Below, in pieces: positions 42,737 through 45,840 of a stretch of DNA of 64,000 bases. The DNA comes from Nocardioides cavernaquae (GTDB taxonomy: Bacteria; Actinomycetota; Actinomycetes; Propionibacteriales; Nocardioidaceae), in the NCBI RefSeq assembly GCF_003600895.1, contig NZ_QYRP01000002.1:682001-746000 (forward strand). The letters are read 5' to 3'. A program made the position numbers and the translations under genes. The notes under the pieces are model-generated. The model was given only the letters and a program-made list of their open reading frames with translations. It was not told the DNA's origin and searched no databases. Numbering within the stretch: position 1 is the stretch's first letter; the number at the start of each line of letters is the position of its first letter.

Positions 42737-43687
42737 TCACTTCTTCAGCACTCCAGCCAACTCGTCTCCGTTGAAAACCAAAAGCGCTGAGATCGAGTGG
42801 CGCTCCATCTTGGCCAGGGCGTCCTCCATGCGCGTTCCGACGGAAACTGCCGCAGGGTTCAGAGTCATCAGATCCGCCGCTGTCCGGTTGAAAACGTCCT
42901 CGCTGAACTTCTCGATGGCACGGCGAACGTCGCCGTCCGTGATGACTCCCCAGCCTGACTCGGACCTGACCAACGCTAGTCCCAGCCGCGAGCCGGTGAT
43001 GGCACTGATGACGTCCATGGTGCCGGCGCTTCCGTCGACAATCGGTAGATCACCGACGACCATCTCGTCCTCGACGCGACTCAACAGGCGCCGCCCCAAC
43101 GAGCCCCCCGGGTGGAACCGAGCAAAGTTCTCGGGCTGAAAGCCCCGGGTTTCCATGAGCGCAACCGCGAGTGCGTCACCCATCGCCAACGTCGCCGTCG
43201 TCGACGCGGTAGGGGCAAGTTGCAGCGGGCACGCCTCTTGGGCGACGCCCACATTGAGGTGGAGATTCGCGGCGCGAGCGAGCGTCGATTGAGGGCTTCC
43301 CGTCATGGCAATGAGGACGTTCCCATTGGCGGCAAGGAACGGAAGCAACTTGATCACCTCATCGGTTTCTCCCGAGTTTGAGATCGCAATGAAGGTGTCT
43401 GACGGGTCCACCATGCCGAGGTCGCCGTGGTAGGCCTCACCGGGATGCATGAAGAAGCTGGGGGTGCCTGTGCTCGCAAACGTTGCGGCAATCTTTCGGC
43501 CGATGATTCCTGACTTGCCCATCCCGCACACAATCGCTCGGCCTTGAGAGCCGATCAACTGACTGACGGCAGCCACGAAGTCCCCATCGACGGTTGCCGC
43601 GAGCGCTAGCACCGCTTGCGCCTCAATCTCAAAGACGCGGCGTGCCGCGTCCAGGGCAACCCGGCCTTCCGGACTCTGCGCGGTCAT
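42737..43687 (-). CDS. kdsD: Arabinose-5-phosphate isomerase (Kdo pathway)
   Basis: ATG 43687 overlaps the kdsB stop (ATGA) and gives 316 residues. The SIS domain (about 20-190) has CGMGKSGIIGRK and SNSGETDEV; FHPGGSLGRRLL is the hallmark of the KdsD/GutQ group, and two CBS domains follow. The second CBS domain ends early at AGVLKK, about ten residues short of typical KdsD. The enzyme interconverts ribulose 5-phosphate and arabinose 5-phosphate, the precursor of Kdo. GutQ-type isomerases catalyse the same reaction in other contexts, but the adjacent kdsB, kdsC and kdsA settle the role. Confidence 0.92.
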   Translation of the reverse strand: MTAQSPEGRVALDAARRVFEIEAQAVLALAATVDGDFVAAVSQLIGSQGRAIVCGMGKSGIIGRKIAATFASTGTPSFFMHPGEAYHGDLGMVDPSDTFIAISNSGETDEVIKLLPFLAANGNVLIAMTGSPQSTLARAANLHLNVGVAQEACPLQLAPTASTTATLAMGDALAVALMETRGFQPENFARFHPGGSLGRRLLSRVEDEMVVGDLPIVDGSAGTMDVISAITGSRLGLALVRSESGWGVITDGDVRRAIEKFSEDVFNRTAADLMTLNPAAVSVGTRMEDALAKMERHSISALLVFNGDELAGVLKK

Positions 43688-44454
43688 GCTGATACTCCTT
43701 CGAGCACCGCGGAAACACGTCGGACGTCCTCGGGAGTATCGACTCCCCCGGGGGGCGCCTCGAACCAGCGCATGACGTGGATCGGGATTCCGATCCATAA
43801 CGCACGCAACTGTTCGAGCTTCTCCGTTTCCTCCGCGATCGACGGCGCGGCACTAGTCAACGATTGGAGCACGCCGTTGCGATACGCGTAGAGACCGAGA
43901 TGCCTGAGGTAGCGATCCAGCATCCACTGCGAGGGCTCCCGGTCCCGGTCAAAGGGGATCGGGGACCGCGAGAATGTGATGGCGGTGTCATCACTCCGAA
44001 CCATGAGCTTGACGACGTTCGGATCATGGACCTCGTCCAGTGTGGCGACGGGGGCCGACACGGTCGCCATCGCAATGCTCTCCGAGACACAGAACAAGGC
44101 GAACGCACGAAGCAGGTCAGCCGGGAGGAGCGGTTCGTCTCCCTGGACGTTGATCACCAGATCGTCAGCTCCCCAGCCGCGTGAGCGGGCGACCTCGGCG
44201 GCTCGGTCCGTCCCGGACAGACAAGAGGTGCTCGTCATCAGGCCATCGAGGTTGAAGGACCCCAGGACATCCAGAATGCGCTGATCATCGACCGCCACCA
44301 CAACTTCGGCTTCCGGCAATGCCTCGATCACGCTCTCGGCAACCCGGACAACCATGGGCCGTCCAGCAAGGTCCACGAGGGGCTTTCCGGGAAGGCGGAC
44401 CGACCCGAACCGGGCAGGAATGACCACTCTCACGCGCGGCTCACTGAACGGCAT
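43684..44454 (-). CDS. kdsB: CMP-Kdo synthetase
   Basis: About 256 residues. VVIPARFGSVRLPGKPLVD is the KdsB N-terminal signature; VAVDDQRI, VQGDEPLL and the late GIPIHV and GVDTPEDV segments complete the family pattern. It activates Kdo with CTP to CMP-Kdo. ATG 44454 overlaps kdsC by 14 bp; a GTG at 44433 would start the protein exactly where well-studied KdsB proteins begin and is an equally good choice. It overlaps kdsD downstream. Confidence 0.93.
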   Translation of the reverse strand: MPFSEPRVRVVIPARFGSVRLPGKPLVDLAGRPMVVRVAESVIEALPEAEVVVAVDDQRILDVLGSFNLDGLMTSTSCLSGTDRAAEVARSRGWGADDLVINVQGDEPLLPADLLRAFALFCVSESIAMATVSAPVATLDEVHDPNVVKLMVRSDDTAITFSRSPIPFDRDREPSQWMLDRYLRHLGLYAYRNGVLQSLTSAAPSIAEETEKLEQLRALWIGIPIHVMRWFEAPPGGVDTPEDVRRVSAVLEGVSA

Positions 44455-44986
44455 CAAAGCGGTCCCAATCCTCAATCAGGGGGGCGTACGCCTCCTCGAT
44501 GGTCAACCCGCCCGCAAGGAGCACACGCTCGGCGGCCTCTCGTCCGGCGCCGCGGCCCCCGGCGGCCGTGAGCACGTAGTCGGCACGTCCCAGGACAAGC
44601 GGGTGTGCATCAACTGGAGCAAAGAAGAAGCCCACCTTGCCGGCAAGGGGAAGGTCCACAACATCATCGCCCACGTACGCGATTTCCGCGTCGGATAGGC
44701 CTTCCTGGGCCTTGATCTCCTCATATGCCTCGCGCTTCGCAAGGCGGCCCGTGATTGCGATATCGAAACCGAGTTGCTTCACCCGGAAGTCGAGCGCAGG
44801 CGACGACTTCCCAGACAGGACACCACTTCGAATCCCGTGCGCCCGAAGGAGAGCAATCGCCAACCCGTCCCTGACGTTGAAACTCTTGAGGACCTCACCG
44901 GTGCCATCCACATGGATAGACCCGTCGGTGAGGACGCCGTCGACGTCAAAGATGACAAGGCGAACTGATCCCGCGTAGGGCTGCAT
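44441..44986 (-). CDS. kdsC: Kdo-8-phosphate phosphatase
   Basis: ATG 44986 overlaps the kdsA stop (TGATG) and gives 181 residues, the usual KdsC size. It is a HAD phosphatase without a large cap: FDVDGVLTDG holds both catalytic aspartates, VLSGKSS is motif 2, and YVGDDVVDLPL is motif 4. KdsC proteins form tetramers and release phosphate from Kdo-8-phosphate. Related YrbI-type enzymes act on other nonulosonates, but the neighbours specify Kdo. Confidence 0.92.
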   Translation of the reverse strand: MQPYAGSVRLVIFDVDGVLTDGSIHVDGTGEVLKSFNVRDGLAIALLRAHGIRSGVLSGKSSPALDFRVKQLGFDIAITGRLAKREAYEEIKAQEGLSDAEIAYVGDDVVDLPLAGKVGFFFAPVDAHPLVLGRADYVLTAAGGRGAGREAAERVLLAGGLTIEEAYAPLIEDWDRFDAVQ

Positions 44987-45840
44987 CAGCTGATCTCCAG
45001 CACAGCGAAACTCTTGACGAGGTCGTCGACTGCCTTGATCTGAGCAAGGAACGGCTTCAGCATCGAGAGCGGGAGTGCGCTCGGGCCATCGCAACGCGCG
45101 GAGTCGGGGTCCTCGTGGGCCTCAAGGAAGAGTCCAGCGAGACCAAGTGCCATTCCGGAGCGGGCCAGTTCGAGCACCTGCCGTCGCCGACCACCCGAGG
45201 CCGCGCTTCCGGAGTCACGGCGCTGGAGGCTGTGCGTGACATCGAAGATCGCCGGCAGCCCACCGGTCGACTCGATCATCTCCCGGAAGCCCAGCATGTC
45301 GACCACGAGGTTGTCGTACCCGAACTGTGAACCGCGCTCGCACAGAATGAGGCTCTCGTTCCCGGCCTCGCGGAACTTGGAAACGATGTGGGACATCTGG
45401 GACGGGCTGAGGAACTGGGGTTTCTTGATGTTGACGACCCGACCGGTCTTGGCCATCGCGACGACAAGGTCGGTCTGACGGGCCAGGAAGGCCGGAAGCT
45501 GGAGAACATCAGCAACTTCAGCGACCGGGGCTGCCTGCGAGGGCTCGTGGATGTCAGTGATTACGGGGACCCCAAACTCAGCCTTGACCGCAGCAAGGAT
45601 CTTGAGTCCTTCATCAAGCCCGACGCCTCGGTAGGACGCAACCGAGGAACGGTTCGCCTTGTCGAAAGACGCCTTGAACACGTACGGGATGCCGAGTTCA
45701 CCGGTCACCTCTACGTAGCGCGCTGCAGCAGAAAGCGTTGAGTCGAGGTCCTCGAGGACGTTCACCCCGCCAAACAGAACGAACGGGGCATCGTTGGCGA
45801 CAACGATGCCTGCGCCTACTTCGACTGCCTTGGTAGCCAT
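44986..45840 (-). CDS. kdsA: Kdo-8-phosphate synthase
   Basis: ATG 45840 gives 284 residues, the usual size. It condenses PEP with arabinose 5-phosphate. Diagnostic segments are [64 protein letters not shown] and CDGPSALPL, and all closely follow the enterobacterial enzyme. An Asn at FGGVNVLE, the site occupied by a metal-binding Cys in the other class, places it in the metal-independent class. It heads the four overlapping kds genes. Close similarity to proteobacterial KdsA, in a lower-GC block, suggests horizontal acquisition. Confidence 0.95.

Follow-up and report, generated by a model that had tools for sequence, protein, structure and literature searches.

Why would an actinobacterium carry a complete set of genes for 3-deoxy-D-manno-oct-2-ulosonic acid (Kdo), a sugar whose presence is taken as a chemical signature of Gram-negative lipopolysaccharide (LPS)? 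The question is raised by a 64,000-nucleotide stretch of the Nocardioides cavernaquae genome (the window; C2:682001-746000, on a 3.455 Mb contig of a 3.47 Mb genome that is 99.6% complete), in which positions 42737-45840 hold four adjacent genes that a first-pass annotation had read as an overlapping set for the synthesis of cytidine monophosphate (CMP)-Kdo. The answer that we consider probable is that the operon at 41353-51430 makes a Kdo-containing surface polysaccharide by a Wzx/Wzy route. KdsD, KdsA, KdsC and KdsB would lead in turn to CMP-Kdo, a glycosyltransferase-like protein that we call GTx would most likely add the Kdo, and LCP proteins could anchor the polymer; the cassette would have been acquired horizontally, most likely from Proteobacteria, and would have diversified in Actinobacteria.

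The four kds genes and their host

All four kds genes are intact and lie on the minus strand, and neighbours overlap, as the first-pass annotation had described, by 1 (KdsA/KdsC), 14 (KdsC/KdsB) and 4 bases (KdsB/KdsD). The Kdo-8-phosphate (KDO8P) synthase KdsA (44986..45840; 284 amino acids, likely start 45840) scores 513, 392 and 356 bits on three curated NCBIfam models with cut-offs of 457, 242 and 314, and its top match in the PDB is a KDO8P synthase (E 3.2e-132). In the alignment to 2qkf it carries both a GGVN sequence (GGxN) and a KANRSS loop, which we take to be marks of the metal-independent type and of arabinose-5-phosphate use. KdsC, the Kdo-8-phosphate phosphatase (44441..44986; 181 amino acids from a likely ATG at 44986, in a frame open to 45094), passes the subfamily model TIGR01670 (143 bits, cut-off 106.95) and fails the equivalog NF007019 (136.9 of 208 bits), and is thus assigned at the subfamily level only; its top PDB match is KdsC (E 9.6e-36). 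The CMP-Kdo synthetase KdsB (43684..44454; 256 amino acids from a likely ATG at 44454, in a frame open to 44475) passes the equivalog TIGR00466 (228.4 bits, cut-off 155.2) as well as NF003952 (249 bits, cut-off 193), stays under the cut-offs of the narrower models NF003948 (171 of 281 bits), NF003950 (207 of 234) and NF009905 (233 of 255), and matches KdsB best in the PDB (E 1.1e-57). The arabinose-5-phosphate isomerase KdsD (42737..43687; 316 amino acids from a likely ATG at 43687, in a frame open to 43798) combines SIS (PF01380) and CBS (PF00571) domains and passes the KpsF/GutQ subfamily model TIGR00393 (321 bits, cut-off 203.7); it fails the equivalog NF008141 (323.6 of 505 bits), so that here too the assignment is at the subfamily level only, and its top PDB match is an arabinose-5-phosphate isomerase (E 1.9e-56). 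The model and PDB matches behind these four predicted functions far exceed chance, and it is well supported that 42737-45840 encodes the whole predicted CMP-Kdo route.

WhiB matches were found at six places in the host genome, two of which only just exceed the cut-off, and in one of 14 control genomes (Corynebacterium); the placement of the host among the actinobacteria is supported at the level of sequence. The host genome gave no match to LpxC, to WaaA or to the KpsC/KpsS family (Capsule_synth, PF05159), for which four, three and two of the 14 controls were positive, respectively, so the Kdo is hardly meant for LPS or for a group 2/3 linker. LCP matches number five in this genome, one of them 11 kb to the left of the window. 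When compared with the pathway (KdsD, KdsA, KdsC and KdsB) that serves the LPS and capsules of Gram-negatives, the window has all four families in adjacent genes; it differs in that its host has no LpxC or WaaA match and in that its kds genes stand within a polymer-type operon. The proposal of such an operon with a full CMP-Kdo route in an actinobacterial host therefore held up, the LPS genes tested giving no match.

The operon and its counterparts in other bacteria

The minus-strand operon runs from 51430 to 41353 and encodes, in this order, an initiating phosphotransferase, an epimerase-like protein, a glycosyltransferase of the WaaS/CpsH family, GTx, a hexapeptide acetyltransferase, KdsA, KdsC, KdsB, KdsD and a Wzy-like protein, with gaps of 60, -4, 8, -8, 26, -1, -14, -4 and 4 bases. 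The initiating polyprenyl glycosylphosphotransferase (49916..51430) scores 414.8 bits on TIGR03025 (cut-off 295.55). The NAD-dependent sugar-nucleotide epimerase-like protein (48722..49855) is matched by epimerase/dehydratase models and by PDB epimerases; none of its best 25 model matches reaches an equivalog cut-off, and a sugar derived from deoxythymidine diphosphate (dTDP)-L-rhamnose would be a guess at its substrate. The WaaS/CpsH-family (CgeB-like) glycosyltransferase (47694..48725) scores 195 bits on NF053598 (cut-off 60). GTx (46414..47685) belongs to a GT-B glycosyltransferase-like family and is named a candidate Kdo transferase on the basis of its predicted structure, its homologues and its proximity to kdsA. 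The WbbJ-like hexapeptide O-acetyltransferase (45867..46421; PF00132 above the cut-off, NF007240 below it at 90 of 243 bits) likely modifies the predicted repeat unit.

The Wzy-like polymerase (41353..42732) reaches 29.0 bits on PF04932, just below the cut-off of 31.7, and is 39-45% identical (tblastn) to the Wzy proteins of two of the loci described below (L019 and L020). Just past the operon end, on the plus strand, stand a Wzx-like flippase (38852..40117), with a weak match to NF041503 (19.8 of 300 bits) and 38-44% identity (tblastn) to the Wzx proteins of L019-L021, and an acyltransferase-3 membrane protein (40176..41249; PF01757). Of the Wzx, Wzy and initiating transferase that had been claimed for this locus, the last is thus clear, and the other two are weak by models yet 38-45% identical to the genes of like clusters.

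When reference genomes were scanned once with the GTx alignment, nine loci came up (L019-L027). In five of them kdsA lies in the fetched flanks of the GTx gene: Pectobacterium sp. CFBP8739 (L019), a Caulobacteraceae metagenome-assembled genome (MAG; L020), Stenotrophomonas maltophilia SJTL3 (L021), a Paenibacillaceae MAG (L022) and Clostridium sp. KNHs214 (L023), at a distance of 1.8 kb or less in four loci and of 8.1 kb in L023. An acetyltransferase homologue adjoins GTx in all five; homologues of the epimerase (45-57% identical) and of the CgeB-like enzyme (28-29% identical) occur in four of the five each, a Wzx match in three and a Wzy match in two. Within the fetched flanks, kdsC was without a match in L020 and L023 and kdsB in L021 (21 kb); kdsA is absent from the four weaker loci (L024-L027), of which L027 holds a match to kdsB. 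The two Bacillota loci (L022 and L023) combine epimerase, CgeB-like enzyme, acetyltransferase and GTx with kds genes. The clusters of L021 and L019 share with the window the epimerase, the CgeB-like enzyme, Wzx, GTx, the acetyltransferase and kds genes; they differ from it in a rearranged gene order and in an initiating transferase that is just 30-33% identical, and L021 differs further in having no kdsB and no Wzy match in its 21 kb. The outer-membrane export of such clusters should be lacking in an actinobacterium. KdsD of the window stops short within its last CBS domain, and the copies of L019 and L021 do likewise; those of L020 and L022 and of a second Nocardioides locus (L016, below) do not. 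Because L019 and L021 share the same ending, we do not read it as decay.

A less direct sign comes from contig sizes, since equal size is an indirect sign of one contig. Thirteen of the 61 GTx homologues found share an exact contig size with one of at least 119 other KdsB matches, and two of the 61 with a KdsA match among the matches listed; these counts are lower bounds, each list holding at least 120 matches. When contig sizes were shifted by 1-50 bases in 2000 trials, the mean count for KdsB was 0.2 and the maximum 3. Mycolicibacterium sp. 120266 and Cryobacterium sp. AP23 are among the equal-sized pairs. Much of the predicted cassette is thus present in Pseudomonadota, Bacillota and other Actinobacteria.

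GTx and the use of CMP-Kdo

GTx has no Pfam or NCBIfam match, and no PDB chain was matched by sequence, even at E 10. Its structure is predicted with a pLDDT of 91.8 and has GT-B fold neighbours (Foldseek and VIA-align), mostly UDP-GlcNAc 2-epimerases and other GT-B enzymes among the best 50 rows of each search; WbbB, KpsC and KrkA are absent from these rows. As yardsticks we used the QxxxD nucleophile and the His-Pro (HP) CMP-binding motif of the retaining Kdo transferases of glycosyltransferase families GT99, GT107 and GT140, the former as given in passages of PMC12887879. The HP pair (H299-P300) is invariant in every row of a 45-row alignment that has residues there, and no Q-x-x-x-D occurs among the commonest residues of that alignment. 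GTx is thus like the retaining beta-Kdo transferases GT99 (WbbB), GT107 (KpsC) and GT140 (KrkA), as those passages of PMC12887879 describe them, in its GT-B-like fold neighbours and its invariant HP, and unlike them in that QxxxD is not conserved and that no PDB sequence matches. Its identification as one of the known Kdo transferases was rejected on the lack of any Pfam, NCBIfam or PDB sequence match and of these three enzymes among the fold rows shown. No relatives were reported from IMG/VR or PLSDB, which gives no sign there of phage or plasmid carriage.

GTx is the likeliest Kdo transferase of the operon. The WaaS/CpsH-type enzyme could transfer the Kdo in its place, which is unlikely, though it remains the foremost of the alternatives: this enzyme likewise occurs in four of the five loci that hold GTx and kdsA, but no match to it is present in the Caulobacteraceae locus L020, where GTx, the acetyltransferase, kdsA, kdsB and kdsD are all retained. 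With GTx as the transferase, a wider proposal may be made, which we hold tentatively and at slightly less than an even chance. GTx would found a new family of CMP-Kdo transferases without QxxxD, with a different and perhaps inverting mechanism that is probable because the nucleophile of GT99, GT107 and GT140 is missing; it would form, with kds and O-acetyltransferase genes, a mobile capsule cassette spread over Pseudomonadota, Bacillota and Actinobacteria; and a Kdo surface polymer would occur in bacteria of Gram-positive lineage, perhaps including Mycolicibacterium and Cryobacterium.

In the route that we favour, KdsD would convert ribulose 5-phosphate to arabinose 5-phosphate, KdsA would condense this with phosphoenolpyruvate, KdsC would strip the phosphate and KdsB would form CMP-Kdo, all as assigned by family. 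The phosphotransferase would begin the repeat on a lipid carrier, the WaaS/CpsH-type enzyme and GTx would lengthen it, with Kdo most likely added by GTx, and the hexapeptide enzyme would acetylate it; Wzx would then flip the repeat and Wzy polymerise it, and the LCP proteins of the genome could anchor the polymer to peptidoglycan. It is rather improbable that CMP-Kdo is made and that its Kdo, instead of entering a repeat-unit polymer, is joined to lipid or protein in a glycoconjugate or serves as a terminal cap. Wzx and Wzy are weakly recognised by the models and no product structure was found for any such cluster, which leaves room for this outcome; against it, a single compact operon holds the initiating transferase, the Wzy-like gene and the kds genes, and the Stenotrophomonas locus (L021) has much of the set behind genes of a WcaJ-type transferase and a Wzc-like kinase.

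Very improbable is a third outcome, that the enzymes make another 3-deoxy-ulosonic acid, 3-deoxy-D-glycero-D-galacto-non-2-ulosonic acid (Kdn) or a related one, as in actinobacterial teichulosonic acids, whose route uses a NeuB-type synthase. No dedicated synthase of this type was found in the host genome: the single match to the NeuB model (29.6 bits, cut-off 22.1) falls on a gene of the DAHP-synthase family that scores 262 bits as DAHP_synth_1. KdsC has a match to the Kdn-9-phosphatase model below its cut-off (90 of 180 bits), which would suit Kdn, and is nearer to KDO8P phosphatase (E 9.6e-36) than to 3e81 (E 1.5e-20), which we take to be a Kdn-9-phosphatase; KdsA, KdsB and KdsD pass Kdo-route models. 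Passages of PMC6801904 describe a Kdn teichulosonic acid in Promicromonospora, and passages of PMC6113628 teichulosonic acids in Kribbella. These are likewise acidic ulosonic-acid wall polymers of actinobacteria; they differ from the predicted product of the window in their sugar and in a NeuB-type synthase that has no dedicated counterpart here. The comparison with Kribbella and Kdn drawn in the first-pass annotation concerns a different sugar route.

Origin of the cassette and its meaning

The 11 genes from Wzx to the epimerase have a GC content of 0.586-0.642 and a GC content at third codon positions (GC3) of 0.656-0.821. For nine of ten surrounding genes measured these values are 0.648-0.717 and 0.830-0.970; the tenth, a small gene beside Wzx (38406-38867), has 0.619 and 0.675. 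Named Stenotrophomonas proteins share 80-82% identity with KdsA and an uncultured Arthrobacter protein 80%, and the closest sequences, at 83-85%, are without an organism name (among at least 120 matches listed). The KdsA tree has 62 rows (53 of at least 119 other matches, eight loci and the window); in it the window falls together with P0002, P0114 and the Arthrobacter protein (SH-aLRT 97), next to sequences of Xanthomonadaceae type. The KdsB tree (70 rows: 62 of at least 119 other matches, seven loci and the window) places it in a group of 23 rows (99) in which only Mycolicibacterium (two rows) and Cryobacterium (one) are named; a MAG protein named Aeromicrobium falls outside this group. In the GTx tree (66 rows: 60 of the 61 matches, a 98% copy being left out, five loci and the window) it stands together with Mycolicibacterium and Cryobacterium in a group of 23 rows (90, not starred), and the named Proteobacteria fall in a separate group.

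The drop in GC and GC3, the three trees and the KdsA identity to Stenotrophomonas point to horizontal acquisition of the cassette, in the end most likely from Proteobacteria, with later diversification within Actinobacteria; the direction is likely and not proved, because these are quick trees of near matches. Of the first-pass suggestion of transfer from proteobacteria, the affinity to proteobacterial genes therefore stands, and the moved unit looks like a whole capsule cassette and not the four kds genes alone. Assembly contamination from a Gram-negative, which the lower GC and the KdsA identity of 80-82% to Stenotrophomonas might suggest, is scarcely credible, since high-GC genes flank the cluster left and right within the 3.455 Mb contig, its KdsA, KdsB and GTx fall among sequences with actinobacterial names and not within one Gram-negative genus, and a near-identical copy exists on another contig, of 4254 bases (KdsA 99% and GTx 98% identical).

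The genes are rare among relatives. KdsA was above the cut-off in one of 58 relatives (the window's own genome), two of 341 genomes of the family (its own and G175) and three of 396 of the phylum (its own, G461 and G603), and GTx was found in one of 394 genomes of the class (its own); these samples overlap. No GTx match at E 0.001 was seen in G175, G461 or G603; the scan had no positive control, though this model does recover the window gene elsewhere. G175, of the same genus, has a distinct kdsD-kdsB-kdsA set (L016, 7530-12379) preceded by a HAD hydrolase and followed by a GT8-containing protein; its KdsA is 51% identical to that of the window and its KdsB lies far away in the tree, and the distinctness of this set points to a putative second, separate acquisition in the genus. 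In G461, of the same phylum, L018 (2294-11770) combines kdsB-kdsD-kdsA with genes for NeuB and CTP_transf_3 on a single high-GC contig of 12 kb, which makes two predicted ulosonic acid routes in one locus; the tree positions of its KdsA and KdsB were not used owing to very long branches. L017 of G603 was set aside as a further actinobacterial kds locus because it is probably a contaminant: its GC is 39-56% per kb, in an assembly of about 350 contigs that is 79% complete. Its contig carries kdsD-kdsB-kdsA plus frames that read like putative ABC transporters.

Elsewhere in the window, 31665..35056 holds genes of the dTDP-L-rhamnose route, RmlA (minus strand), RmlB (plus) and a fused RmlC-RmlD (plus), with TIGR01207 and TIGR01181 above the cut-off and the RmlD and RmlC models below it; these genes possibly supply a second sugar. 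The RmlC-like and RmlD-like parts are fused in a single frame of 466 amino acids (33656-35056, plus strand). A Wzc-like chain-length tyrosine kinase (28481..30472, plus strand) scores 163.5 bits on TIGR01007 (cut-off 108), and the listed GTG probably lies upstream of its true start. On the minus strand, 4606-10911 and 11114-17455 hold two open frames in tandem (2101 and 2113 amino acids) that closely resemble each other, the first with bacterial Ig, fn3 and cadherin-like domains.

A full-text search of the open-licence literature for Kdo in actinobacteria or Gram-positives gave one relevant mention among the matches listed: according to passages of PMC6106888, Pontimonas salivibrio (Microbacteriaceae) seems to add KDO, a trait rare beyond the Gram-negatives, and the closest matches lie outside that group. 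Kdo genes are thus found in another actinobacterium, as in the window; the passages describe no operon, transferase or export route, unlike what is proposed here. In the same literature no report of the cassette or of GTx was found. The first-pass suggestion that such a polymer may be undescribed is right in part, KDO genes having been mentioned in Pontimonas. We concluded that it is well supported, from gene content and context, that the window holds a Kdo capsule cassette of Gram-negative type that is resident in an actinobacterium, with a predicted product. The GTx glycosyltransferase-like family is directly assayable with KdsB and Kdo. If the reading is true, Kdo by itself would not mark a cell as Gram-negative, and a whole capsule module would have crossed between Gram-negative and Gram-positive lineages.

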